From: Alphaproteobacteria bacterium
GTDB lineage: Bacteria > Pseudomonadota > Alphaproteobacteria > UBA2966
Direction: 5' to 3'
NCBI GenBank assembly: GCA_021296255.1
Contig: JAGWAU010000010.1
Span: 2,880 to 66,879, forward strand
Length of the DNA: 64,000 bases
The number at the start of each line of letters is the position of its first letter. The first letter of the stretch is position 1. Position numbers and translations under genes: made by a program. Under the pieces are notes generated by a model, which saw only the letters and a list, made by a program, of their open reading frames with translations, searched no databases and was not told the DNA's origin. Positions 13,871 to 28,008 of this stretch are shown here, in pieces.

Positions 13871-14611
13871 ATGATCGAACTCTCGCAGTTCCCGACTCTC
13901 TCGTTCGCCTTCGCCGGAGCCGCCGCCGTGCTGGGCGGGATTCTCATGGGGTTCACGGGTTTCGGTTCGACGCTCGTGATGGTCCCGCTGCTCACCATCG
14001 TCTACGGCCCCGCCGAGGCGGTGGTCGTGGGCGTCTCCATCTCCGCCGCGGGGTTGGCCCAGATGGTGCCGCAGGCATCCCGCGACGCGGTATGGAGGGA
14101 CGTGATCCCGACCTGCATCGGCGCCATGGCGCTGATCCCGGCGGGAACCGCGCTCCTCTTGCTCACGGATCCCGAACTGACTCGGCGGCTGATCGGTGCG
14201 GTGGTTCTCCTGGTGGCGATCGTGATGCTGCGCGGCTGGTCGTACTCTGGGCCGCGCAATCGCTGGACCGCGGCCCTTTGCGGGGCCGTCGGCGGGTTCA
14301 CCAACGGATACTTCGGGATCGGTGCCCCCGCAGTCACGTTCTATTTCCTCGGGCCGAGCGTCAGCGCCGCGGTGGCGCGGGCCAACATCCTGTTGATCAT
14401 CGGCGCCTTTTCCGTGGCGACCGTCATCGCGATCGCGATCGGAGGCGGCATCGGCGCCGAAACAGGGTTGCGCGCCGTCGTCCTGTTCGTGCCCTATTCT
14501 CTGTCGCTCTGGATCGGATCGCGGCTGTTCCGGCGCGCCTCGGACGACCTCTACCGCAACATCGCCCTCTGGCTGCTGATGGCCATGGGCGTGACCGTGC
14601 TCGTGTTCTAG
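13871..14611 (+). CDS. TauE/SafE family membrane transporter (copy 2)
   Basis: A 246-residue paralogue of the upstream gene without its extra N-terminal segment. GFTGFGSTLVMVPLLTIVYGPAEAV and the later GGFTNGYFGIGAP line up almost residue for residue with copy 1, so a tandem duplication is likely. It probably exports or imports an organic or sulfur anion. Its TAG stop lies in a CTAG that also forms the stop of the convergent Rieske gene. Confidence 0.85.
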   Translation: MIELSQFPTLSFAFAGAAAVLGGILMGFTGFGSTLVMVPLLTIVYGPAEAVVVGVSISAAGLAQMVPQASRDAVWRDVIPTCIGAMALIPAGTALLLLTDPELTRRLIGAVVLLVAIVMLRGWSYSGPRNRWTAALCGAVGGFTNGYFGIGAPAVTFYFLGPSVSAAVARANILLIIGAFSVATVIAIAIGGGIGAETGLRAVVLFVPYSLSLWIGSRLFRRASDDLYRNIALWLLMAMGVTVLVF

Positions 14612-15999
14612 CCGGCCAGCCTCGTCCTCGCGAACTCGGGCCGATCCTTGATCCCGGCAAGCTCGGCTTCGATGTAAGCCACCCGCTCCCCGCGCGACAT
14701 ACCGTCCGCCGAACGGAGAACCTCGATGACGGCGTCGGACACGCGCCGCCGCAGCTCCTCGTCGTCCCCGCCCGGCACCTCCGGTATCGGGATGATCGTG
14801 TCGCTGCAGTAGGACGGCACTTCCTCCCCGTTCTGCGGCGGCCGGGCGGGCGGCTCCCCGTTCCGCACCCGCTCGATGCCGGCGCGGAGGTTCTTGCGCA
14901 GGATAGCGACGCCCCGGTCGGTGTGGCCGAGGTTCTCGGTGCCGTGCACGGCGACAAGTCCCTGTCCTACCTGCGCCTCGTAGTCGCTCGGGATGCGCTG
15001 GCGCTCCTCGTAGGGCCGGTCCGCGGTCTGGCCCAGGAAGTCGACGGTATCCTTGCCCACCAGCTCACGGCGTCCCTGGTTGTCCGGGTCGATGGCCGCC
15101 CCGAAGTGCCGCCAAGCCGTGATCTTGGTCGTCGTGTCGTCGACCGGCACCGTCCACTTGGTAATTGCGGCACGCTGGAAATACTTCTGGGCTTCCGCAG
15201 TCTCGAAGAACGATCCGACCTGGCTGAAGCTCGGAAAGAACGTCTCGTAGACCCGCACCCAGACATTGTCCTTCCAGCGGAAGGTGCAGACGTTGCAGCT
15301 GTGCCGGCCGTTTTCATGCTCGTACCAATCGATGACCGGCATCTCGCCCCAGCTCTCCTCGAAGTGATCGACGGAGTGGTTCGCATGCAGGAACACCGTG
15401 TGGTACGGATCCGTGGTGTTCTCGGCGATCTGCAGCCAGTTCGCCGGATACGAGATCGAATACGGCACCAACTCGTCGTCGGCCAGGTTGAAGGTGTCGT
15501 AGACCGGGAACTCCGGCATCCAATCCTGCGGCCCCATGTACACGAACAGCAGGCCCTTGAACTCGATCACGGGATAAGCGCCGTGGAACACCCTTTCCTT
15601 GATCCTGCTATTGGCGGGCTCGCCCGGCGTGTCGAGGATGGTTCCGTCGACGGCGTACTCCCAGCCGTGGTAGCAGCACCGGATACCGCATTCCGTCACG
15701 TGCCCGAACTCGAGGGACGTGTTGCGATGGCTGCAGTTCAAATGAAGGCAGCCGTACTCGCCCCGGCGGGTCTTGAACACCACCAGGTCCTCGCCGAGGA
15801 GTCTGGTCCTGAAGGGGAGATCGCCAGGAACCTCCTCCGTCATCCCGATCGGCCACCAGAAAGTCCGCAAATACTCCCCGCACGGCGTGCCAGGGCCCGT
15901 CTCGGTCAGCAGCGGATCGGGCGGCGGACGGTTGGCCTTCTGCGCGCCACGGAAGTTACCCTTCGGCAGATCAGGCCGGACGAATTCTGCAACGCTCAT
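14608..15999 (-). CDS. Rieske non-heme iron oxygenase alpha subunit (copy 2)
   Basis: A 463-residue ring-oxygenase subunit, clearly diverged from the other two in the window. The Rieske ligands are C89-x-H91 and C108-x2-H111. The iron ligands are D197, H200 and H205 in TDPYHTVFLH. The ATG at 15999 is chosen for the GGGAGAG before it; the upstream in-frame stretch is not family-like. It converges on the TauE/SafE pair, and the two stop codons share the palindrome CTAG. No electron-transfer partner is adjacent. Confidence 0.92.
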   Translation of the reverse strand: MSVAEFVRPDLPKGNFRGAQKANRPPPDPLLTETGPGTPCGEYLRTFWWPIGMTEEVPGDLPFRTRLLGEDLVVFKTRRGEYGCLHLNCSHRNTSLEFGHVTECGIRCCYHGWEYAVDGTILDTPGEPANSRIKERVFHGAYPVIEFKGLLFVYMGPQDWMPEFPVYDTFNLADDELVPYSISYPANWLQIAENTTDPYHTVFLHANHSVDHFEESWGEMPVIDWYEHENGRHSCNVCTFRWKDNVWVRVYETFFPSFSQVGSFFETAEAQKYFQRAAITKWTVPVDDTTTKITAWRHFGAAIDPDNQGRRELVGKDTVDFLGQTADRPYEERQRIPSDYEAQVGQGLVAVHGTENLGHTDRGVAILRKNLRAGIERVRNGEPPARPPQNGEEVPSYCSDTIIPIPEVPGGDDEELRRRVSDAVIEVLRSADGMSRGERVAYIEAELAGIKDRPEFARTRLAG

Positions 16000-16214
16000 C
16001 GAAGCTCTCCCGTCCCGTCGCTTCCGCGATGTGCCGATGGTCGCGCCGGGGCACATGCGGGAATTTCCCGGCGGCAACTATGCCCCAGGCGAACGCGCCC
16101 CTTCAACCGGCGAACTCCTGCAACTCCGACTCCCGCGGGCACTTCGTGTAGATTGGTCCCGCTCCCCGGCGACGGGGAGACGCGGATCGAGGGGTCGCCC
16201 GGTCCGCGAACGAC

Positions 16215-16360
16215 GATCGGAACCCGATGAGCGCGCTTCGCCTTGATGCGGCTCCCCGGGACCGTCCATGTCTCCGACTTCAGATCCACCTCGTCCCATG
16301 TGGCGAGTGAGATGACAGCATCCGCTCGTAGGCCTCGGAGGTACGCTCCTCGTTCTCAAG
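16215..16360 (-). pseudogene. Tyrosine recombinase (integrase) remnant
   Basis: A short relic read from the minus strand. One frame gives LATWDEVDLKSETWTVPG then SRIKAKRAHRVP (about 16223-16308), which closely matches the strand region of phage-type integrases before the catalytic core. Just upstream, ERTSEA appears in a different frame, where an intact protein would have RTSE directly before the ATW motif. The integrase-like sequence breaks off after HRVP. So at least one frameshift and large deletions are present and no catalytic R-H-R-Y set survives. It lies 22 bp from the 92-bp repeat at 16382. The rest of 16000-16381 shows no gene. Confidence 0.6.
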
Positions 16361-16381
16361 CTGCATGAGTATTGCCCTCAA

Positions 16382-16473
16382 TGTTGTTCGGCGCCCAACC
16401 TTGACCCCACCCGTTCCAATTAAATCAAAGAGTTACCGTGCAAATCGGCGTCCAATTTAGACGCCGATCAACA
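16382..16473 (-). repeat. 92-bp terminal-inverted-repeat element (copy A)
   Basis: Read on the minus strand the unit begins TGTTGATCGGCG and ends CGCCGAACAACA, so its ends are imperfect inverted repeats with TG...CA tips. An inner palindrome (ATCGGCGTC, then GACGCCGAT) lies at the first end. Hand alignment to copy B at 25184 gives the same length and about 69 of 92 identical bases without gaps. The two copies are in opposite orientation. The TTGACCC motif and end style recall IS21-family termini, but no transposase is present. No clear target duplication was found. Confidence 0.75.
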
Positions 16474-16773
16474 GGAGGACTCGCAACGCAATAGATCGTT
16501 TACAAAGTGCCGGTAGTCCCCGCCCCAACCGTCCATGAGGTTTCGCATGTCTCGGATCACATTGATGACGTACCAGGTCTTCTGGTCATACTGGCATTCA
16601 TCCCAGTCGTCCTCTCCGCCACTGAAGAGGTTCTCTTCTTCGTCGTAAGAGCGGATGCACTCCTCGACAAAAAAGCTCAGACCAGAAGAAAGAGCTCTTT
16701 GAGCTAAGCTCCAACCTGGGTTGATAAAGAGAACGCCAGCGAACACAAGCATTATCAATTTCGTCTTCATCAT
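16468..16773 (-). CDS. Small secreted Cys-containing protein of unknown function
   Basis: A 101-residue protein not recognised as any family. It begins with a clear signal peptide (MMKTKLIMLVFAGVLFINP, likely cleavage after SLA). The mature part is acidic, rich in Trp/Tyr, and has four Cys, ending RCESSC. The ATG at 16773 (or the next codon) is preceded by GAGGGG. The last Cys codon and TGA stop are formed by the TGTTGA tip of repeat copy A, so the original C terminus may have been replaced when the element inserted. Confidence 0.55.
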   Translation of the reverse strand: MMKTKLIMLVFAGVLFINPGWSLAQRALSSGLSFFVEECIRSYDEEENLFSGGEDDWDECQYDQKTWYVINVIRDMRNLMDGWGGDYRHFVNDLLRCESSC

Positions 16774-16780
16774 CGTCCCC

Positions 16781-17077
16781 TCATCTGCTCGGGAGATTAT
16801 CGGTTTCGGCAGGCGCCTGGCGCATCTCCTGAGCCTCCGTACTACCAATGCCGACCCCAACAGCTATAGGTGAAGGCGCGGCCTCTCCCGGTTCGACAAT
16901 GAGACGCCCTCTCCCGCGCCTGACCAGAAATCCGCCGCGCCTGATCGGGAGCTTGCCTTCCTGAATGAGCGGCCGGAGGGCGTCGACGATTGTCTCGAGA
17001 TTCTTGTCCACCTTTTCCGCCTTTGCCTGCGAGGAGAACCACTCGGCGAACGCCCGCCCTCCGATATCGGGTCCCAC
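16781..17077 (-). CDS. Hypothetical protein
   Basis: A possible 98-residue protein from GTG 17077, ending eight bases before the small secreted-protein gene. The middle (KVDKNLETIVDALRPLIQEG, then KLPIRRGGFLVRRGRGRLIVEP) looks like genuine coding sequence with a helix followed by basic strands. No family was recognised. Its 5' end lies against porin-like remnant sequence on the other strand, so it may be a fragment of a longer gene truncated on that side. Confidence 0.35.
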   Translation of the reverse strand: MGPDIGGRAFAEWFSSQAKAEKVDKNLETIVDALRPLIQEGKLPIRRGGFLVRRGRGRLIVEPGEAAPSPIAVGVGIGSTEAQEMRQAPAETDNLPSR

Positions 17078-17485
17078 AGCCTACATCTCCGCCGACGGAA
17101 CCCGGCAGTTCGATTCCATCGCCGTCGCCGGCGTAGGCGAAGTCGTCTATGGCAGAGCACCAAGTTCGACGTCGGTGTGGGCTAGGAAGACCTCTCGTCG
17201 AGCAGCCTGGATGCCAGCCGCTGGTACGTCTCGGCGGGGGTTCGCAGGAAGACCGGCGTCGTGAGCCTGTCTCTCGAGGGACATCCGGGCCGCATCGAGG
17301 GCGAGGACGAGAGATCGGGCGCGCCTGGCGCCCGGTACGATCTGGCCCGCGGCATGTCCGTCAATCTCGGGATCAACTATGCCGAGGCCTTGATCGATCT
17401 CGGCGGCGGAAGCTTCGTCAACACCGAGGACACGAAGGCCGTCGTTTCGCTTCGGTACAGCTTCTGGGTGAACCCGGGATGTTGA
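17040..17485 (+). pseudogene. Degenerate outer-membrane porin
   Basis: Fragments in more than one frame resemble an alphaproteobacterial porin. Upstream pieces read SADGTRQFDSIAVAG and STKFDVGVG before an in-frame TAG at 17183. After the stop the same frame continues as ASRWYVSAGV, GMSVNLGINYAEALIDLGGG and ends in VVSLRYSFWVNPGC (17485). Alternating strands and a near-terminal aromatic Phe are what a beta-barrel C terminus shows. No intact start or signal peptide was found. It is best read as a dead remnant next to the repeat-bounded island edge. Confidence 0.5.
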
Positions 17486-17590
17486 TCCGGACTATTCGAG
17501 AAGTATGGTAAACCTCCTACTGCATAAGCGAGGCTTGGATCTTGGCACTTGGTGTTTGGATATCGGTGAAACTGGAAGGCAGGATTTCCA

Positions 17591-19192
17591 GTGCCCAATA
17601 GCAATACGGATCGCCCCAACTTCGTCCTCTTCATCACGGACCAACACCGGGCCGATTACCTGGGGTGCTACGGTCATACGGTCCTGAACACGCCGCATAT
17701 CGACCGAATTGCGCGTAACGGCATCCGCTTTGACCGCTTCTATGTGTCGAGTCCTCAGTGCATGCCGAACCGCGCCACGATGATGACGGGACGCATGCCG
17801 TCCGTTCACGGCGTGCGGACCTCGGGCATTCCGCTGCCGCTGCGGGCCAACACGTTCGTCGACTTGATGTGGGCCGACGGCTACCAGACCGCACTCGTGG
17901 GCAAGTGCCACCTCCAGAATATTCACGACTGGCCGCCGGAAATCCTGCCTTCCGGTTTCATCGAACGGCGGGATGGCCCTCTTGCCGAGTTCGGCGAAGC
18001 ACTTAAGCCGGTCCCGGGGGAGGACTACGAGCGGGAGCGCGGCTCGCTCTGGCGTTACCACAGCGTCTATCGCCCGCTGAAGAACCATTACGGGTTCGAG
18101 CATGTCGATCTGATCACACAGCACGGTGATTTGGGAGAAGCAGGCTACTACACCTGGCTGCGAAGCAAGGGTTGCTCGCCGGAGAGGCTTCGCGGTCCCG
18201 AAAACGCCCTGCCGCATGACTATGTCTGTCCCGAGGCTTGGCGCACGGCCGTCCCTGAAGAGCTGTATCCGACATCCTTCGTCGAACGGAAGAGTGTCGA
18301 GTATCTCGAGAACTACGTGCGGCAATGGGACCCAAAACCCTTTTTCCTTCAGGTCTCGTTCCCTGATCCGCATCATCCCTTCACGCCGCCCGGGCGTTAC
18401 TGGGGCATGCACGACCCGCGAGACATGCCGCTGCCCCCGTCCTTCGACATGGAAGACGACGCGCCGCCGCATCTGCAGTGGTCGCGCAACTACACACGCA
18501 CGCAGGGCAATTCCTACCACGCCTATCCCGCGACCCGCCGCGAAGCGCAGGAAGCCATCGCGCTCACCTGTGACATGATCGCGATGATCGACGATGCCGT
18601 TGGTTCCGTGCTGGACGTCCTGGAGCGCCTGGGTTTGAGCGACAATACGATCCTGATGTTCACCAGCGATCATGCGGACCTGCTTGGGGATCACGGCATG
18701 ATGTTGAAGGGTCCGTTCCACTTCCAAGGACTGATCCGTGTCCCGTTCATCTGGTCGGATCCCCGGGTCAGGCACGCGCCCGAAAGCTGTGATCGGGTCT
18801 GCGGTACGATCGATATGGGTCCCACGATCCTCGACCGTGCCGGCATCGACCCGTTCAACGGCATGCAAGGCCGCAGCATGCTGCCCCTGGTGTCGAACCC
18901 GAACGGGGAATGGCGTCACGGCATCCTCATAGAGGAAGAGCAGCACCACGGCGTGCTGGGCTTCGACGAACCCTTACGCCTCAATTCGTTCGTCACCGAA
19001 CGTCACCGAATGACGATCTATCATGGCGTGGAGTGGGGAGAGCTGTACGATCTGGAAGAAGACCCGCACGAGTGCACGAATCTCTGGGACAGTCACAATG
19101 CTCGCGAGCTACGGCGCGAGATGATGGAGGCAGTTGCGTACGAACGCATGGCGCTGGTCGACCGGAGCCCGTTTCCGACGCGCCTAGCCTAG
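17591..19192 (+). CDS. Sulfatase family hydrolase
   Basis: A 533-residue sulfatase/phosphonate-monoester-hydrolase-type enzyme. Metal-binding ITDQHRADYLG lies at residues 15-25. The formylglycine signature is C57-M-P-N-R61, with Asn where Ser is most common but with the essential Cys and Arg kept. The TSDHADLLGDHG metal motif lies around residue 356. There is no signal peptide, so it should act in the cytoplasm. The start is GTG at 17591; an inverted repeat CTGGAA/TTCCAG (17572-17591) overlaps it and could fold at the ribosome site. No formylglycine-generating enzyme is in the window. Confidence 0.88.
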   Translation: MPNSNTDRPNFVLFITDQHRADYLGCYGHTVLNTPHIDRIARNGIRFDRFYVSSPQCMPNRATMMTGRMPSVHGVRTSGIPLPLRANTFVDLMWADGYQTALVGKCHLQNIHDWPPEILPSGFIERRDGPLAEFGEALKPVPGEDYERERGSLWRYHSVYRPLKNHYGFEHVDLITQHGDLGEAGYYTWLRSKGCSPERLRGPENALPHDYVCPEAWRTAVPEELYPTSFVERKSVEYLENYVRQWDPKPFFLQVSFPDPHHPFTPPGRYWGMHDPRDMPLPPSFDMEDDAPPHLQWSRNYTRTQGNSYHAYPATRREAQEAIALTCDMIAMIDDAVGSVLDVLERLGLSDNTILMFTSDHADLLGDHGMMLKGPFHFQGLIRVPFIWSDPRVRHAPESCDRVCGTIDMGPTILDRAGIDPFNGMQGRSMLPLVSNPNGEWRHGILIEEEQHHGVLGFDEPLRLNSFVTERHRMTIYHGVEWGELYDLEEDPHECTNLWDSHNARELRREMMEAVAYERMALVDRSPFPTRLA

Positions 19193-19393
19193 AGACCGAG
19201 CGTGATTTGCAATTGGCAAGAGTTAAGCGACCTCCTTCGAAGCCTGTAGTCTGAGCGTGGGAATTGTCGCGGCCGAAGGGGATGTGTTCCCACGTGTGTT
19301 GGGTTGGCGGTTTGCAATTCTGGTTTGTCAGCGTGGCTGAGCACACTTAGCCGTGCTTGAAGCGCTTGCGCACTGCTGACAATGGAGATCGAC

Positions 19394-20677
19394 ATGGCCG
19401 ACATTCTCTTTTCCAACGTCCGTATCCTCGATGGATCCGGTGAGCAGCCCTACGAAGGCGCAGTCCTGATCCAGGGAAACCGTATCAAGAGAGTCGAGCG
19501 CGATAGCGAAACCACTGGCGACGGTAGCATGGCGGTGATCGACGGTGCCGGCGCGACGCTTATGCCTGGGATGGTGGAGGCCCACACGCATCTATCGTGG
19601 AACGATCAGCCCACCCTCGAGGCTATCGCTCTGCTGCCGCCCGAAGAGCATACGTTGTTCACCGCGCAGATGGCGAAGCGCTATATCGATATGGGGTTCA
19701 CGTCCTGCGTCGGTGCCGCCGCGGCCAAGCCCCGCCTCGACGTCGTCATTCGCAACGCGATCAACTCAGGACAAATTCCCGGGCCCCGCTATCTTGCCAA
19801 CGGACAGGAGATCGCCACCCGTGGCGGCCTCGGCGACACGTCACCGCCGCATCTCGAGTTCCCGGAGCTTTCTTTCGGCTACGTTGTGTCAGGCCCTGAG
19901 GAGATCCGTGCCGCCGTGCGAAGGTTCATCAAGTACGGCGTGGATCTCATCAAACTGAACCTGTCGGGCGAGGAGATCGCCGGTGTCGCCGCCGAAGAAA
20001 CGCCGATGACCGACGAGGAGGTGGCGGTCGCGGTCGAGGAGGCCAAGCGGCGCGGTAAGCGGGTCTGTGCCCACGCCCGGTCGTCCGAATCCGTTCGGAT
20101 GTGCATCCGGCACGGTATCGAGATCATCTACCACGCATCCTACGCTGACGAGCAAACGCTCGATATGCTCGCGGCGGCCAAGGACAAGCACTTCGTTGCG
20201 CCGGGCCTCGCCTGGCTCGTACGCACCTCGGAGGACGCGGCAGGCTTTGGCATCAGCCCGGATTCTCCGCTCGGCCTCCAGTATGCCCGTGAGCGTGATA
20301 TTGCCATCGAGACCATGGCAAAGATGCACCGTCGCGGCATTCGAGTACTACCCGGCGGCGATTACGGCTTCGCCTGGATTCCCCACGGCCAGAACGCGAG
20401 AGACCTGGAATACTTCGTCAACCTGGTTGGCATGTCGCCGATGGAAGCCGTCCTGTCGGCGACCAAGTTGGGCGGCGCGATCATGGGGCGGCCGGAGGAA
20501 CTGGGCCAGATCAGGGAAGGGTACCTCGCCGACATCATCCTGGTGGACGGCGATCCCCTCGCCGATATCCGCATTCTGCAGGATCGTGAACGAATCCTTG
20601 CGGTGATGAAGGACGGCACGTTCCACCGTGCTCCCGATGTGGCGGCCGACGAACGCTCTCTGCGGTGGGCGGTCTAA
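19394..20677 (+). CDS. Amidohydrolase family protein
   Basis: A 427-residue metal-dependent amidohydrolase (imidazolonepropionase/prolidase-like subgroup). H64-x-H66 opens the metal site, [10 protein letters not shown] probably holds the bridging lysine, further ligands lie in CAHARSSE and IYHASYAD, and the catalytic Asp is in GGDYGF. The ATG at 19394 is chosen over 19382 because GGAG is correctly spaced before it. It lies 200 bp downstream of the sulfatase. The substrate is probably a cyclic amide, peptide or lactam, not identified. Confidence 0.88.
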
Positions 20678-20711
20678 CGGTTTCATTCCCGGCAACAGCT
20701 TGGCCACGGAG

Positions 20712-22253
20712 ATGACCGACAGTCAGGGAAATGCGGACCGGGTCGGTAGAAGACTGCCTTCCGACACTGCGAGCGGCACCGTGTTTCGGGTTCGCCGTCC
20801 CAGCTTGCAAGACGAGGCCGAGTCACAGTCAGTGCCGGTTGCAACGCCGCCAGAGGACCCCGAACTCTCCAGTGGCGACTTTCCCCGGAATGAGGATGTG
20901 CCTTCCGAACAATTCGATGTCAGGGGGCCTCGCTCAGCGCCTCGGGAAGCGGCGACGAGGCCGCCGGCACTCTCGCCGCTCGCGGAGCGTCCGGAATTGC
21001 GGATTCAAGAAGCGGCGCGCGCATCCATCGCGCGCAATTTGGACCGGGCGGCTTATGTGGTCGGGACTTTCGACACCAAGGGCAGGGAACTGAACTTCGT
21101 CAGAAGCCGCTTAAGTGCGGCTGGTTTGCGCACGGTTACGGTGGACCTCGGCACGAGTGAACGTCCGTCGGGCGCCGACATCGGTCCGCGTGAAGTCGCA
21201 CGATGTCATCCGCAAGGCCCGGATGCCGTCTTCACGGGGGACCGGGGGACCGCCGTTGCAGCCATGGCTGAAGCGTTCTCCCGGTTTCTTGTCGAACGAC
21301 GCGATCTGGGCGGGGTCATTTCGGCAGGCGGTTCCGGCGCCACCGCACTCGCCACACCGGCGATGCAGCGGCTCGATGTGGGCATTCCAAAGGTTATGGT
21401 ATCAACCGTCGCATCCGGCGACGTTAAGCCTTATGTCGGACCGACCGACATCTGCATGATGTATGCGGTGACCGACGTCCAGGGTCTCAACCGGATATCG
21501 AGGCGGGTCCTGACGAACGCGGCGAATGCGCTCGCCGGCATGATCGCCCAGACTCCTGACCAGAGGGCCGATGATCAGGAAAAACCGGCAATCGGCCTGA
21601 CGATGTTCGGCGTCACGACGCCGTGCGTCCAGGCCGTCACCTACGCGCTCCAGGATCGTTACGATTGTCTGGTCTTTCACGCGACCGGCACCGGCGGGCA
21701 GTCGATGGAGAAACTCGTGGACTCGGGTCTCCTGACAGGCGTGATCGACGCCACAACGACGGAAATCGCCGATTTCCACCTGGGTGGTGTCATGAGCGCC
21801 GGCGAAGACCGGCTCGGAGCCATCATCCGTGCCAAAATCCCCTATGTCGGATCTTGTGGCGCCCTCGACATGGTGAACTGGGGCGCCATGGACACGGTTC
21901 CGGAGAAATTCCGGGAACGGAAGTTGTATGCGCATAACCCCCAGGTCACCCTGATGCGGACGACGGCCAGGGAGAACGACGCCATGGGCCGCTGGATCGC
22001 GCGGAAGCTGAATCAGTGCGAGGGACCCGTTCGCTTCCTCATCCCCGAGGGCGGCGTTTCCCTGCTCGACGCACCAGATGCCGACTTCTGGGATCCCGAC
22101 GCCGACAGGGCATTGTTTGCGGCCATTGAAGAGGAATTCATGTCCTCGGCGAACCGCCGCCTCGTGCATGTATCGCACAACATCAATGAGCCCGAGTTCG
22201 CCCGCGTGCTGGTGGACAACTTCCTCGAGATCGTGGGCGGCAGTGACCGGTAG
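20712..22253 (+). CDS. Tm-1-like ATP-binding (UPF0261) protein with N-terminal extension
   Basis: The UPF0261 domain begins at about residue 113 ([17 protein letters not shown]) and runs to the end. It contains the TGDRG and [15 protein letters not shown] stretches and the [11 protein letters not shown] region typical of the family. The first 112 residues are Pro/Glu/Arg-rich and unlike the family, whose members usually start right at the GTFDTKG strand. No good start is visible closer to the domain, so ATG 20712 is tentative. It is followed by a PEP-hydrolase-type TIM-barrel gene. In the plant Tm-1 protein these two parts are fused. Confidence 0.8.
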
Positions 22254-22264
22254 GGTGGCGGGTG

Positions 22265-23098
22265 ATGCCTAGATTCGAAAGGCGCGAGCTCGTGGAGCGT
22301 TTCCGACACATGATCGCGCGAGGCGAACCGATCATCGGTGGCGGTGCCGGAACCGGCCTGTCCGCCAAAAGCGAGGAGGCCGGCGGGATCGACCTGATCG
22401 TCATCTACAACTCCGGTCGTTACCGCATGGCGGGCCGGGGTTCGCTGGCCGGACTGCTTGCCTTTGGGAATGCCAATGACATCGTGGTGGAAATGGCGGC
22501 CGAGGTTCTGCCCGTTGTCCGAAAGACGCCGGTTCTGGCGGGCGTGAACGGCACGGATCCGTTCATGTTGCTGGAACCGTTCCTGCGGCGGCTGATCGAT
22601 CTCGGCTTTTCGGGCGTGCAGAACTTTCCGACGGTGGGTCTCATCGACGGCATTTTCCGCGTCAACCTGGAGGAGACCGGCATGGGCTTCGGTCTTGAGA
22701 TCGACATGATTCGCGCCGCCCATGAACTCGACATGCTGACGACGCCTTATGTCTTCGGCGAGGAGGGCGCACGAGCAATGACGGAGGCCGGCGCCGATAT
22801 CATCGTCTGCCATCTCGGCCTGACCACAGGCGGCACGATCGGAGCGGAAACGGCTCTCACGCTCGACGACTGCGCCAAACGTATCGATGCCTGGTCGGCA
22901 GCGGCCCGCCGCGTGCGCGAGGACGTCATCGTGTTGTGCCACGGCGGGCCCATTTCGATGCCGGAGGACGCCGATTATATTTTGTCGACCTGTTCCGCCT
23001 GCGATGGGTTCTACGGCGCGTCGAGCATGGAGCGATTGCCGACAGAGCAGGCGCTCGTCGAGCAGACGCGCAGGTTCAAGGAAGTCGGACGGGGCTGA
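22265..23098 (+). CDS. PEP-hydrolase family TIM-barrel protein (Tm-1 C-terminal domain type)
   Basis: A 277-residue TIM-barrel protein. [20 protein letters not shown] near the N terminus, the GVNGTDPF strand, [13 protein letters not shown] and [15 protein letters not shown] are the conserved loops of the family. The ATG at 22265 follows a GTG one codon earlier; either could be used. It begins 11 bp after the UPF0261 gene. The family is found paired with or fused to UPF0261; the reaction is not established from sequence. Confidence 0.85.
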
Positions 23099-23153
23099 CG
23101 CAAGCCTCGGGGCGGATGCACATGCAGAACTTTGGTCAGGATGGAGGAGGAAA

Positions 23154-24980
23154 ATGACCGTCCAACATCTCAACGTTCTTTTCGCGGGGATCGTCATCAC
23201 TGCGGTCGTGATCACGGTAGCCGCGTATCTCATGCATGCGTTCTATCGGCGGGCGTCCGCGGTACGCGCGTTTGTCCGCACTGGTTTCGGCGGGCGCAAG
23301 GTGGTGTTGGACGGTGGCGCCCTCGTGATCCCCGTCTTCCATGAAGTTGTCTCCATCAACATGAACACGCTGCGCTTGGAAGTTCGACGGGTTCGTGACG
23401 CGGCACTGATCACCAAGGACCGCATGCGCGTGGACGTGGTGGCGGCGTTCTACGTGCGGGTGCAGCCGACGCGCGAGGCCATTATCCGGGTGGCACAGAC
23501 CCTCGGTCAGCGCACCAATCAGATAACCGAACTCACCGAACTCCTGGAAGGCAAGTTCGTCGACGCGCTACGCGCTGTCGCTGCCGAAATGACGATGGAG
23601 GAAATGCACGAGAAGCGCGGTGAATTCGCCGTGCAGGTGAAGGCCCTCGTATCGGTGGATCTGGAAACGGACGGTCTGGAGCTGGAGGCCGTGTCGCTCA
23701 CCGATATGGACCAGACTGGTATGGAGTTTTTCGATCCCTCCAATGCTTTCGACGCGGAGGGCCTTACACGGCTGACCGAGGAAATCGAGCTTCGGAAAAA
23801 GGCGCGAAACGATATCGAACAGGACACGATGATCCAGATCCGCACGAAGAATCTGGAGACGGAGCGCCGGACCCTGGATATCGACCGGGAGACGGAATAC
23901 GCCCGGCTCGAGCAACAGCGGGAAGTGGAAATCCGCCGGGCCTCGCAACAGGCGGAAATCTCGCGCGAGAAAGCGGCGAGCGAGCGCAACTCTGAGGAAG
24001 CCCGGATCCAATCTCATCTTGAGATCGAAAAAGCACGCATCTCCGAGCAAAGGGAGCTCGACGAACAGCGTATCGTGAGTGAACGGGACATCCGGCGCCT
24101 GGAAATAGGCCGGCAACAGGCTCTGGACGAAGCTGAGATGGCTGCTCGAGAGGAGGTCGAGCGGGCCCGGGTTGTCATGGAGCGGGCAATCGACGAAGCG
24201 CAGATCCTTCGAGAACGGGATAGGGAGCGTCTAGAAATCGAGCGTCGGCGAGATGTGGAAATTGCAGAGCATGAACGGACGATTGCCGTCGCAGAGAAAT
24301 CAAAGGAGGTCTCTGAAGCGCAGGCCGCTGCCGACTCCTCCAGGGCTCGCGCGGTGACCTCGGAGGAAAAAGTCTTGTCCGCTCGGGAGGTCGAAGTAGC
24401 CGAACGACGACGTCAGATCGACGTGATTCAGGCTCGACAGGCAGCCGAACGTGAGGGAGTGCGCATGCGCATGACTGCGGAAGCCGAAAAGGAAACGGCT
24501 GCCGACCGCGCGGAGGCCATCCGCATGACGGCGGAAGGCGAGGCCGAAGCGGACAAGGTCCGGGCGCTCGCAGCGAAACTGCGATACGAGATCGATGCCG
24601 AGGGCAACCGCCTGATGAACGAGGCTCAGAACACGCTGACCGATCAAGGGAGCCGGACCGAACTGCGACGGCGTCTCATCGATAAGATCGAAGGGATTGT
24701 TCGTGAATCCGCGAGGCCCCTCGAACGTATCGAAGGGATCAAGATCCTGCAGGTTGATGGCTTGGGCGGCACGGCCGCGGGTACTGATGGTACCGACGCC
24801 CGCCAGGACTCATTTGCTGACAACGTCGTCAACAGTGCTTTGCGTTATCGGGCGCAGGCGCCGCTGGTCGACACCCTGCTGCGGGAGATCGGCATCACGG
24901 GCAACGACTTGCAGGGTGTCTCGGATATTCTTGACTCCGCCGGCTCCGGGGAAGGTTCTTCCAGTTCAGAGGAGGGGTGA
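23154..24980 (+). CDS. Flotillin family membrane scaffold protein
   Basis: A 608-residue flotillin. One N-terminal membrane segment (about residues 5-30) is followed by the SPFH/PHB domain (about 30-220, beginning RTGFGGRKVVLDGGALVIP). A very long charged coiled coil follows (about 225-500, rich in Glu/Arg/Ala with EIxRE-type repeats), then a C-terminal flotillin region. The ATG at 23154 has a strong GGAGGAGG site. Flotillins organise membrane microdomains. Its place at the end of the sulfatase/amidohydrolase/Tm-1 run suggests co-inheritance. Confidence 0.9.
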   Translation: MTVQHLNVLFAGIVITAVVITVAAYLMHAFYRRASAVRAFVRTGFGGRKVVLDGGALVIPVFHEVVSINMNTLRLEVRRVRDAALITKDRMRVDVVAAFYVRVQPTREAIIRVAQTLGQRTNQITELTELLEGKFVDALRAVAAEMTMEEMHEKRGEFAVQVKALVSVDLETDGLELEAVSLTDMDQTGMEFFDPSNAFDAEGLTRLTEEIELRKKARNDIEQDTMIQIRTKNLETERRTLDIDRETEYARLEQQREVEIRRASQQAEISREKAASERNSEEARIQSHLEIEKARISEQRELDEQRIVSERDIRRLEIGRQQALDEAEMAAREEVERARVVMERAIDEAQILRERDRERLEIERRRDVEIAEHERTIAVAEKSKEVSEAQAAADSSRARAVTSEEKVLSAREVEVAERRRQIDVIQARQAAEREGVRMRMTAEAEKETAADRAEAIRMTAEGEAEADKVRALAAKLRYEIDAEGNRLMNEAQNTLTDQGSRTELRRRLIDKIEGIVRESARPLERIEGIKILQVDGLGGTAAGTDGTDARQDSFADNVVNSALRYRAQAPLVDTLLREIGITGNDLQGVSDILDSAGSGEGSSSSEEG

Positions 24981-25086
24981 ACGCATCGGGGGCGCTGATA
25001 CCAATCATCGCGGATATGGCGCGGGACGACAGGCGCCGCGCCTTCGCTATTACGGACACCCATGGGTTCACAGGGAGGAACGGCAC

Positions 25087-25200
25087 ATGTGCATCAACTC
25101 ATTCAGACTTCTGCCGCTGGCCATGACGGCCGCGGCGTTCTTAATCGCGGCGCCGGGTCAGGCGCAGCCTTTACGCCATAGACTGTTGATCGGCGCGTGA
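25087..25200 (+). pseudogene. Secreted protein truncated by repeat copy B
   Basis: An ATG at 25087 with a strong GGGAGGAAC site begins a Sec signal peptide (MCINSFRLLPLAMTA, then AAFLIAAPGQAQ). The frame enters the 92-bp repeat at 25184 after about 32 residues and stops at a TGA inside it. Only the signal and a few mature residues are left, so the original secreted protein is lost. The good ribosome site shows it was once a real gene. Confidence 0.6.
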
Positions 25201-25275
25201 ATTGGATGCCGATCAGCACGCCAACTGTTTGATTTTACTTGACCCAGGGCGGTCATATTTGAACGCCGATCAACA
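25184..25275 (+). repeat. 92-bp terminal-inverted-repeat element (copy B)
   Basis: The unit begins TGTTGATCGGCG and ends CGCCGATCAACA. These perfect 12-bp terminal inverted repeats extend one more base on each side (C...G). It aligns without gaps to the reverse complement of copy A over 92 bases. TTGACCC is present in the interior. It carries no gene. With copy A it encloses about 8.7 kb. Confidence 0.8.
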
Positions 25276-25532
25276 GATTGCGCCGTGCATCGGCGAACCA
25301 TCCACGACAGCCGCTGGCTCGGACGCCACGACGATCGCCGTGCCGAATATTGCCGCGGCGGCACCTCTGTCGGGATCGCTCGGCTGCGTCTTCCTGGCAC
25401 AATCGACTCCTGCCGAGCGGTTACTTTCCCCATAGCCCGGCATCACCGCCGTGCCGCGCGGCCCAGCTCAATGATCTTATCGGTCTTGCTGCACACGACC
25501 GATAAGAGCCTGTTCATTATGTTAAGGTCTTT
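25276..25532. other. Non-coding stretch with a perfect hairpin
   Basis: No credible gene is seen between repeat B and the broken desaturase. At 25475-25507 an 11-bp perfect inverted repeat (TCTTATCGGTC and its complement) surrounds an 11-base loop. There is no run of T after it, so a standard terminator is unlikely. It could be a terminal or internal repeat of another lost mobile element. Confidence 0.45.
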
Positions 25533-26080
25533 TCAGAGCCTCCAGCGGGGGAGTTCCGCGCCCGCCGGGCGAGAAAACCCAGCCGGCAGCCTGGACGCCT
25601 GAAGGCGCATCAGACCGAATCCGGAGACTTCCGCCAGCCAGCCGCCCAGCGTCATCGGCGTGTTGAACGGCATCTGGCTGTCCTTGCCAACATGCCAGGT
25701 GAAAGTGTGGTGGTTGGTGTGGGTGTAACGCCGATGCAGCGGCTCTTCCATGTAGATCAGCGAGCCGGTCCAGAGCACCGTTTCATTCAGCCAATGACTG
25801 CGAAAGGCCGTACCGTGCGCCGTTTCGTGGCTGATGGCATAGGCTGGAACGCTCAGCAGCACACCTGCACGAACATCGCCGGCCACAGCCACCAGGTGCC
25901 GAGAGACAGCCACACGAAGGCGCCCGTTACGAGCAGTCCAGCGCCCCACCGGGCCAGATAGACGAGGCCCGGGCCGTCGCTTCGCCGCGTGAGCGACTTC
26001 AGGGTCTTACTGTCGAGCGTCACATCGCTCGAGGCGGCGTTGGTCGGTGCATGCTCCGGCATCGTGACCTTAGCTTGCAT
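25533..26080 (-). pseudogene. Fatty acid desaturase-like protein, frameshifted and truncated
   Basis: The ATG at 26080 starts a protein with a hydrophobic segment (GLLVTGAFVWLSLGTWWLWP) that reaches MFVQVCC and a stop near 25857. The adjacent frame continues directly as GVLLSVPAYAISHETAHGT, with the histidine boxes HETAH and HTNHH and then TWHVGKD. One extra base in the CAGG at about 25864 would restore FVQGVLLS. The end (after FGLMRLQA) is far shorter than the usual membrane desaturase/hydroxylase and lacks the last His box. So the gene is dead. Confidence 0.7.
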
Positions 26081-26813
26081 AGCTGGAGCCTTCCTCATCG
26101 AGGAGGGCCTTGATTTCGGCGAAGTGACGTTCGGCCTGGCCCGGATACCGTTCCACTTCGGACGCGACCCTTTCGGCCAGGTCGGCGGACATGAGCCGCA
26201 GCGGCTTGCCGGTCTGCGCGGCGCGCTCGAAGTGGTACAGACGGTTGAAGGTATCGGCCACGCTGTCGCCGATTGCGAGGACACCGTGGTTGCCCATGAC
26301 CATGATCCTGATCCTGGGGTCGGTCAGCATGGCGGCACAGCGCTTGCCTTCCGCCTCGAAGGCGAGGCCTTCGAGGGCCTCGTCGACGGTCATCCGGTTG
26401 AAGAACGTGGCGGTATTGAGGTCGATCGGCGGCAGGATGCTCTCTTCGAAGCTCGCCAGCACGGTTGCGAAGGGGGAGTGAAGGTGCATGACACAGCGCG
26501 CGTGCCGGTAGCGGCGATGGAGCGGTGCGTGCAACCCCCAGGCGGTTGCATCCGGCGCTTCGGGCCGGCTCAACGCGTCCGTGTCGTCGGCGTCCAGCTC
26601 GAGCAGGTCCGAAGCCCGAATCCTGGAGAAATGCATCTGGTTCGGATTGATCAGGAACCGGATCCCCTCCAAATCCACTGCCAAGCTGAAATGATTGGCA
26701 ACTGCTTCGTGCATGTTGAGGCGCGCCGTCCAGCGGAACGCGGCGGCAAGGTCGACGCGGGCTTCCCAGTGGTCAAGGCCCGGCCGTTCCAGAACTCGGG
26801 GTCGGACAGTCAT
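26070..26813 (-). CDS. Class II aldolase/adducin family protein
   Basis: A 247-residue class II aldolase-fold protein. Zinc-binding His residues are visible in VMHLHSPFA and the later GNHGVLAIG; NHFSLAVD and a conserved LINPNQMHFS lie near the N terminus. The family includes fuculose-phosphate aldolase and ribulose-phosphate epimerases. The gene is transcribed divergently from a LysR regulator with a palindrome between them, so the regulator probably controls it. Its stop overlaps the start of the broken desaturase gene by 11 bases. Confidence 0.88.
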   Translation of the reverse strand: MTVRPRVLERPGLDHWEARVDLAAAFRWTARLNMHEAVANHFSLAVDLEGIRFLINPNQMHFSRIRASDLLELDADDTDALSRPEAPDATAWGLHAPLHRRYRHARCVMHLHSPFATVLASFEESILPPIDLNTATFFNRMTVDEALEGLAFEAEGKRCAAMLTDPRIRIMVMGNHGVLAIGDSVADTFNRLYHFERAAQTGKPLRLMSADLAERVASEVERYPGQAERHFAEIKALLDEEGSSYAS

Positions 26814-26895
26814 CGCAATCGACCGGCAATGGGGACGTGCAGAAGATGTTGGGCAGCCGGTCCGGCATTAACAAACGTTAGATCTTCGGGCGTAG

Positions 26896-26912
26896 CATTA
26901 ATAATATTAATG
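26896..26912. promoter_or_regulatory. Candidate LysR operator
   Basis: A perfect AT-rich palindrome, CATTAAT-AAT-ATTAATG, lies between the divergent aldolase and LysR genes, 28 bp before the LysR start. The core fits the T-N11-A pattern of LysR-type binding sites, and the composition contrasts strongly with the GC-rich surroundings. Confidence 0.55.
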
Positions 26913-26940
26913 TATTCGTTGTGCATGGAGTTTTCTTTCC

Positions 26941-27810
26941 ATGACAAACCTGCCCCCACTCACCTGGTTGCGCGCGTTCGAGGCCGCCGCACGGCACCTT
27001 TCCTTCACCCAGGCGGCGGCCGAGTTGAACCTCACGCAGTCGGCGGTGTCCCAGCATGTGCGTAGTCTCGAATCCGCGCTTGGCCTGACCCTGTTCGTCC
27101 GCAGGACCCGAGCGCTTCAATTGACCGAAGGCGGATCGAACTACCTCCCCGTCGTCCAGGAGGCGTTCGAGGTCCTAACCGCCGGAACCCGTGCACTTGT
27201 CGGCGACCGGGGACGGCAGTTGAGGGTGAGGTCCAATCTTTCCTTCTCGACCTTCTGGCTCGCCCCGCGGCTCGGCGCCCTGCTGCAAGCCCATCCCTGG
27301 CTGTCTCTCAATCTGACGACACCGATCTGGAATCCGCAGAGCGTCGAGGGCATACCGGAAGTGGAAATCCGATTCGGACGTCCGGTACTGATGCCGGACA
27401 CCGCAAAGCGGCTCGCGGCCGAAAGGGCTTATCCGGTCTGCACACCGGATGTGGAGCCGGCGTTGCGCGACTGGAGAACCGCGCCGCTTTTCGACTGCGT
27501 GGGCGTGACGACCAATTGGGAAGCTTGGCTCGCGAGCCGGGGTCATGCTCTGCCGCCGGACCGGAATGTCAACCTCGCGTCGACCTACGTGGTCGTGATG
27601 ACCGCGGCCATGAACGGCGTCGGCCTCTCGATGGCGCACGACACGTTGGCAAGCGGGTTGCTCGGGGATGGCCGGCTCGAACGCGCCTACGATCACAGCG
27701 TTGCGATGCCCGAAGGCTATTTCCTGCTGCCACCGGCCAGTCATCAAGAGACGCCGGCGGCGCGAACCTTCGTCGATTGGCTCGAAGAGCATTTTGCACG
27801 CCGCGAGTAG
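26941..27810 (+). CDS. LysR family transcriptional regulator (GcvA-like)
   Basis: A 289-residue LysR regulator. The winged-helix DNA-binding domain covers residues 5-65 (LTWLRAFEAAARHLSFTQAA, then QSAVSQHVRSLE), followed by a periplasmic-binding-protein-like sensor domain. The N terminus resembles the GcvA subgroup. It is divergent from the class II aldolase gene, its likely target, with a T-N11-A palindrome between them. The inducer is unknown. Confidence 0.92.
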   Translation: MTNLPPLTWLRAFEAAARHLSFTQAAAELNLTQSAVSQHVRSLESALGLTLFVRRTRALQLTEGGSNYLPVVQEAFEVLTAGTRALVGDRGRQLRVRSNLSFSTFWLAPRLGALLQAHPWLSLNLTTPIWNPQSVEGIPEVEIRFGRPVLMPDTAKRLAAERAYPVCTPDVEPALRDWRTAPLFDCVGVTTNWEAWLASRGHALPPDRNVNLASTYVVVMTAAMNGVGLSMAHDTLASGLLGDGRLERAYDHSVAMPEGYFLLPPASHQETPAARTFVDWLEEHFARRE

Positions 27811-27942
27811 CGCCCGGCGCCTCGGATCGGAAGTCAAGGCGCAGCGCTTGCCGGACGGGAAGTTCCTGCCTCGTCTTGTCCCTCGCCCGGAAAAGATTCG
27901 TGTACGTCGGGATACCATTGAGTCTCGCGTTGCTCCGCATGT

Positions 27943-27977
27943 TGTTGTTCGGCGTCCAATTTAGACGCCGAACAACA
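27943..27977. repeat. 35-bp palindromic relic of the 92-bp element (copy C)
   Basis: TGTTGTTCGGCGTC and its exact reverse complement flank a 7-base centre (CAATTTA). This equals one end of copies A and B folded onto the opposite end, with the 57-base interior missing. It lies between the LysR and MFS genes, which converge here, so it may also act as a two-way transcription stop. Confidence 0.7.
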
Positions 27978-28008
27978 TTATTGGCCTCTGCCCCATCCCG
28001 CGCCGCCG

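Follow-up and report, generated by a model that had tools for sequence, protein, structure and literature searches.

A dispersed 92-bp repeat with IS21-type ends and a predicted IHF site in an alphaproteobacterial genome

We analyzed a 64,000-nucleotide stretch (the window) of an Alphaproteobacteria bacterium of lineage UBA2966 (assembly GCA_021296255.1, contig JAGWAU010000010.1, positions 2,880 to 66,879 of the forward strand), which contains two copies, A and B, of a 92-bp repeat, here called the unit. The original prediction took A and B for the ends of a decayed composite element or island that encloses five plus-strand genes and a porin remnant, with an integrase relic just outside A. We found both copies at the predicted coordinates, each 92 bp long and in opposite orientation, and their gap-free identity was indeed 69 of 92 positions (75%). 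Each end of A and B reads TGTTG(A/T)TCGGCG. The five genes between them were assigned by Pfam to the families that had been proposed, namely sulfatase, amidohydrolase, UPF0261 (Tm-1-like), PEP_hydrolase, and flotillin. The window also contains a third, 35-bp copy that had been overlooked (Table 1). This near-palindromic form is flanked by convergent LysR and MFS genes and lies where a stretch that the congeners do not share ends on the right. With up to two mismatches, the terminal 12-mer TGTTGATCGGCG has 33 occurrences in the window, where shuffling predicts 10.5. The exact 12-mer occurs 21 times genome-wide, not all of them in units, while the pattern read backwards does not occur. No Rfam RNA was matched in the window at the gathering score.

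To characterize the unit, we collected 33 full-length copies, 13 from the source genome and 20 from three further genomes (G300, G395, and G396), defined by a profile match that starts at position 3 or earlier, ends at position 90 or later, and has E<1e-5. This set excludes 35-bp forms as well as copies that are truncated or more decayed. The copies are 92 bp (27 copies), 91 bp (4), or 90 bp (2) long, and their mean pairwise identity is 67%. End-to-end alignment was obtained for 24 copies (21 of 92 bp and 3 of 91 bp); in the remaining nine, 1-3 unmatched end positions were filled by padding. The unit is made up, in order, of L1 (TGTTGWTCGGCG...TTGACCCC), an integration host factor (IHF) consensus, L2 (GATCGGCGTCCAA), and R1, an inverted TGTTGATCGGCG. 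These blocks are conserved in the 33 full-length copies and the spacers are near random: the information per column is 1.49, 1.50, 1.52/1.40 (the IHF letters), 1.43, and 1.62 bits in the blocks, 0.49 bits at the four N positions of the IHF consensus, and 0.49-0.78 bits in the spacers. Without the 57 bp that separate the start of L1 from that of L2, the unit would measure exactly 35 bp, which is the size of four copies in the source genome.

The IHF motif was first seen by eye and then tested. Taking the best window within positions 30-60, the consensus WATCAANNNNTTR is present exactly in 17 of the 33 copies, with one mismatch in 12, with two in 3, and with three in 1, always at unit position 40-42. 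Permutation of columns 28-57 gave at most 2 exact sites in 1000 runs. The unit thus carries a conserved IHF consensus, that is, a predicted IHF site. We also considered a terminator or RNA hairpin and rejected it: the single-strand DNA folds of A and B were mildly better than those of shuffles (z -2.4 and -2.6), and a consensus fold had a compensatory change in 1 of 22 pairs. Integron attC sites have the core sites RYYYAAC...GTTRRRY at their ends. The unit ends, TGTTGAT...ATCAACA, are in the opposite order and by eye do not fit RRRY, so an attC site was rejected as well.

The terminal repeats of the unit are of the IS21 type. The source genome has one clear IS21 element, on contig C26, with istA present and an IstB match of 257.5 bits (C26:202-903, one stop inside); a second PF01695 match, on C32, is weak (25.6 bits, within a reading frame of 509 aa). 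The left end of the C26 element, at C26:2466, reads TGTTGATCGGCGTGGAATATTGACCCCC, i.e. TGTTGATCGGCG-N7-TTGACCCCC. The 12-mer, identical or with one letter changed, recurs in the unit, as does TTGACCCC, which occupies positions 20-27 in both, and 28 bp of this left end match a unit end at 86% (E 0.03). We then compared the unit with IS21 relatives on plasmids from Pukyongiella, Methylorubrum (ISMdi27), and Roseomonas; a fourth relative, from Mesorhizobium, was excluded because its ends depart from the pattern. In all three ends, L1 is followed 34 bp further on by an inner L2 with GATCGGCGTCCAA, and none of the three has an IHF site in the first 71 bp. The unit and these ISMdi27-like ends have in common L1 with TTGACCCC at position 20 (two of three), L2 with GATCGGCGTCCAA, and the inverted R1. 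However, the unit contains no genes, its L1-L2 distance is 57 and not 34 bp, with the IHF site in between, its R1 is inverted directly behind L2, and a 7-8 bp target duplication is missing. Two other short arrangements were observed. One is a 58-bp sequence in which an IS21-type left end is joined to a right end (L142 3555-3612; G000:C62:11554), a simpler mini-element. The other is an inverted pair, TGTTGATAGGC...GCTATCAACA, that measures 64 bp end to end (L138 175-238; G396:C166) on a small contig that also carries istB.

The unit is dispersed in the source genome (4.25 Mb, 136 contigs). BLAST with B matched 17 places at E<=1, and a sequence-only model built from 11 copies gave 24 matches at E<=0.01 on 14 of the 136 contigs. 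Of these 24 matches, 19 represent the 92-bp unit, in some cases truncated or incomplete, four are 35-bp forms, and the last is weak. All 23 distinct copies tested lie outside recognisable genes, as judged by a rough codon score of our own. Nine gaps between neighbouring units are 10 kb or shorter (hand count) against 1.3 expected for 24 random places, and none of 20,000 runs of a simulation that ignored contig ends reached nine.

Outside the source genome the distribution is sparse. At E<=0.001, BLAST over 41 genomes (the source genome and 40 relatives) matched the source genome alone, and in a class sample 2 of 385 genomes matched at E<=1e-4 (the source genome and G300), with at most two candidates scored per genome. 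The model gave 13 matches in G300, 14 in G395, and 17 in G396 at E<=0.01, partial ones included, and found no unit in two congeners and four same-family genomes, so that units were present in three of these nine genomes. An exact-pattern search, from which records of the source genome were possibly left out, returned two named contigs, from the Rhodospirillales metagenome-assembled genomes RHO3_bin_58 and RHO3_bin_80; a sponge origin of these bins was considered and not established. The exact pattern was found in no viral contig, and carriage of copy A on plasmids was rejected, as no match was obtained. When a 15-kb stretch of contig C64 was searched in the congeners, it gave scattered gene matches, none of which spanned a unit. 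Contigs C22 and C64 have in common a 540-bp segment beside a unit (87%; L026/L150 and L025), and the detected similarity stops at the outer edge of the unit. In G300 (L147 8844) and G396 (L148 9100), units close to the 3' end of one and the same gene point in opposite directions, and the flanking segments are rearranged; we read these as independent insertions.

Taken as a whole, A and B are probably independent copies of a short, non-coding family that resembles miniature inverted-repeat transposable elements (MITEs), is derived from IS21 ends, has an IHF-bent end, and is clustered in plastic regions. The unit is short, non-coding, and multicopy and has terminal inverted repeats, as MITEs do. 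Several observations count against this interpretation. By eye, the C26 end has neither L2 nor an IHF site in its first 71 bp, and C26 is therefore not the direct parent of the unit. No autonomous element with an L1-IHF-L2 end was found, either at C26 or in the istB stretches of G395, G396, and G006, where the pattern used detected no unit-type end beside istA, and no IstB was detected at E<=1e-30 in G300, despite its 13 unit matches. Decayed copies outside the set of 33 carry insertions or deletions (L087, L119, L156, L160, and L162), so the length constraint holds for well-preserved copies. The four unit-bearing genomes are all drafts, at least two of them metagenome-assembled, and the source genome has an estimated contamination of 4.22%.

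The missing target-site duplications belong on the same side. None of the 33 copies has a perfect target repeat of 4-10 bp, and there is a single one of 3 bp against 1.2 expected. Among 23 distinct copies (25 rows, the four 35-bp forms included) there is no perfect repeat of at least 3 bp. In contrast, two of the three IS21 relatives have duplications of 7-8 bp. A clean empty site was not found either, the sole comparison (C22/C130) being paralogous and of a truncated copy: the C130 copy, whose last bases are missing, stands where C22 and G396 have about 60 bp of other sequence. Total flank matches of lengths 3-10 in the 33 copies were within about 1.3 standard deviations of shuffles, and in the 23-copy set only one of the 11 lengths, 6 bp, gave a high count (p 0.016). 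We examined whether duplications had been swapped between copies by intramolecular events and rejected this, as none were found beyond chance among 35 copies; equal 5-bp flanks occurred in two pairs among these copies in four genomes, with 0.7 expected in all. A young group (C60, A, C22:14904, C22:12685, and C23:28519) has 91-94% identity to C60 among the matches listed. Its two intact members have no target duplication; of the others, two are cut at one end and C23:28519 has about 15 bp missing inside. In Paracoccus, the IS21-family element ISPve1 makes 8-bp duplications in simple insertions (7% of clones) and more often inserts with one-sided deletions of 0.5-4.5 kb (16%) (PMC3281130). Given these deletions and the missing duplications, we favor insertion that would entail loss of target DNA.

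The following mechanism could account for such a family. IstA of an IS21 element would bind L1, L2, and R1 in trans. IHF would bend the 57 bp from L1 to L2, a distance that exceeds that in full IS21 relatives by 23 bp, and thereby may let transposase subunits pair. The 35-bp forms would derive from the loss of 57 bp between two direct repeats, and insertion, or early loss of one side, would have removed target DNA and left no duplication. IstA is described as requiring a complete end with two repeats and as synapsing two ends as a tetramer (PMC10122671). The role suggested for IHF is modeled on the left end of the type I-F CRISPR-associated transposon (CAST), in which an IHF site between the first two transposase (TnsB) sites stimulates transposition (PMC10201428). 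We advance only tentatively, as a rather doubtful extension, that IS21-type mini-elements with their own L1-IHF-L2 end spread duplication-free by replacing or deleting the target and mark rearrangement-prone regions of several alphaproteobacterial genomes.

We consider it very improbable that A and B delimit a single decayed composite transposon or island that carries the five genes as cargo. The region is variable relative to the two congeners, A and B are inverted at the borders of the gene run, and the GC content at third codon positions (GC3) of the five genes (0.70-0.78) is below that of four left-flank genes (0.84-0.91); four right-hand genes, two of which lie within the variable stretch, have 0.77-0.83. 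Overall GC is 61.5% between the repeats, 65.8% to the left, 63.4% to the right, and 62.4% at 38-57 kb. This mild GC3 difference fits a variable or acquired stretch. However, the near-identical insertion sequence (IS) copies around a unique segment that make a composite were not found: A and B share 75%, the nearest full-length copy (n=33) of A is on C60 (92%) and that of B on C105 (90%), both on other contigs, and the unit is present on 14 contigs. Because units cluster in general, a nearby pair is not special, and since among neighbouring 92-bp units separated by at most 14 kb 7 pairs are inverted and 5 direct (hand count, profile-model scans), the inverted order of A and B has no weight. About 270 kb separates the left block (window 11.9-16.1 kb) from the right one (28.1-31.7 kb) in congener G001, and G002 has the two blocks on separate contigs among other neighbours, so that the blocks are non-adjacent in both congeners and no empty site joined at the repeats was seen. 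Homology stops at 16052/16110 and resumes at 28002/28072; the variable stretch therefore does not end at B but at about 28.0 kb, where its right end adjoins the 35-bp copy. Part of the PEP-hydrolase gene matches G002 elsewhere (70% over 425 bp). Three of the five supposed cargo genes, UPF0261, PEP-hydrolase, and flotillin (window 20628-24980), form a linked trio in the same-family genomes G004 and G006 (L067 and L068), in which no unit was found. We infer that the genes between A and B are not cargo of the unit. The original prediction was right about a variable segment and about end-only elements with kinship to an insertion sequence (IS21), but not about A and B as borders of a single cargo block.

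Two other explanations were considered. The unit could be a maintained chromosomal site with an IHF-dependent architectural or regulatory role, similar to the RIP/RIB elements of E. coli, whose spread is old; selection would preserve its blocks and its length, and decay of the flanks would have erased the duplications. The near-fixed length, the block conservation at 67% mean identity, the position of the 23 distinct copies outside recognisable genes by the rough codon score, and the missing duplications would all suit such a site, but we consider it unlikely: it has no match in the two congeners or the four same-family genomes, several copies are truncated, and the copies with 91-94% identity to C60 among the matches listed stand at different places with unlike flanks, which implies recent movement. 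It is highly improbable, though again in keeping with the IHF site and the lack of duplications, that the unit is the site of a tyrosine-type site-specific recombinase assisted by IHF, with the 35-bp form as its core site. The 12-11-12 layout of the 35 bp in four copies of the source genome would agree with this, as would a possible integrase motif near A, ETWTVPGSRIKAKRAHRVP (window 16218-16274, minus strand), which was seen by eye and is integrase-like. On the other hand, both the sequence and the spacing of L1, L2, and TTGACCCC agree with IS21 ends, and little flank sequence is shared, with the two pairs of equal 5-bp flanks described above. The integrase relic itself found no Pfam support: at E<=1, no family was matched by the open reading frame (ORF) 16078-16359 or by a typed 32-residue peptide, and the ORF 15996-16289 gave one unrelated sub-threshold match only. 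Searched as DNA against plasmids, the relic had no match.

The preferred reading, a MITE-like family derived from IS21 ends, has partial counterparts among known elements. The E. coli RIP/RIB elements (REP-IHF-REP) resemble the unit in size (about 100 bp), in inverted repeats around an IHF site, and in their intergenic position, and differ from it in having REP sequence in place of IS21 ends. The Correia elements of Neisseria (CREE/NEMIS), of 155 and 107 bp, are likewise short non-coding repeats with terminal inverted repeats; the long form has an internal IHF site and is almost exclusively intergenic, and the short form lacks the internal part, comparable to the 92- and 35-bp units (PMC2229807). 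Their termini differ from the IS21-type ends of the unit, and while most such bacterial elements end in a 5'-TA-3' motif and are flanked by target duplications (PMC2229807), the unit has no duplications. The left end of VchCAST (type I-F) also has an IHF consensus between L1 and L2, at one end only (PMC10201428), but it is the functional end of a large Tn7-like element, whereas the unit is complete at 92 bp and has IS21-type repeats. The 100-bp MITEPsy1 of Pseudomonas syringae is similar in size, non-coding, and multicopy, and has been shown to transpose; it differs in its IS5-like termini and 4-bp duplication, and the accessible part of the report mentions no IHF site (PMC3189936). No IS21-derived MITE is described in the accessible parts of the literature examined (PMC3189936, PMC9208149, PMC3281130, and the reviews PMC10969869 and PMC2229807), which is no proof that none is in print.

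As for the genes between and beside the copies, the UPF0261 and PEP-hydrolase-like homologues in the two genomes with the trio have 60-73% amino acid identity, and it is possible that the trio is functionally linked. The porin remnant could not be substantiated: its reading frame contains stops, and a tblastn query with X at the stops matched none of six fetched relative loci. A signal-peptide-like start (MCINSFRLLPLAMTAAAFLIAAPGQAQPLRHR, window 25088-25183) continues into copy B, and B may have interrupted a small secreted-protein gene; Pfam gave no match for the longer ORF 24697-25200. The Rieske oxygenase gene to the left of A (window 14608-16077) belongs to a large paralogous family, with several dozen matches in G001 and G002.

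Table 1 Features of the window that relate to the unit.
Feature	Position	Strand	Remark
Unit copy A, 92 bp	16382-16473	-	Order on + strand: L1-IHF-L2-R1
A: L1 terminal motif TGTTGTTCGGCG	16382-16393	+	
A: L1 second half TTGACCCC	16401-16408	+	Unit positions 20-27, offset as in left end of the genome's own IS21 (C26)
A: IHF consensus AATCAAAGAGTTA (predicted site)	16423-16435	+	Unit positions 42-54
A: L2, inner direct copy of end repeat	16439-16455	+	
A: R1 terminal motif TGTTGATCGGCG	16462-16473	-	
Unit copy B, 92 bp	25184-25275	+	Order on - strand: L1-IHF-L2-R1
B: L1 terminal motif TGTTGATCGGCG	25264-25275	-	
B: IHF consensus AATCAAACAGTTG (predicted site)	25222-25234	-	
B: L2 inner repeat	25202-25218	-	
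B: R1 terminal motif TGTTGATCGGCG	25184-25195	+	
Third copy, 35-bp form (12-11-12)	27943-27977	.	Layout of the unit minus 57 bp between L1 and L2 starts
Five genes between A and B	17591-24980	+	Pfam; probably not cargo of the units
Stretch without homology next to the flanking blocks in either congener	~16111-28001	.	Left homology stops 16052/16110, right resumes 28002/28072

For the window, these results remove the idea of an 8.7-kb composite element. The near-fixed 92-bp length and the fixed IHF position make the geometry of the unit testable. If the interpretation is true, IS21 would be added to the families with MITEs, and a design of transposase site, IHF site, and transposase site would be common to IS21-type elements and CRISPR-associated Tn7-like transposons, whose transposases are related. 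The explanation of the missing duplications could, in addition, bear on the deletions caused by IS21-family elements.

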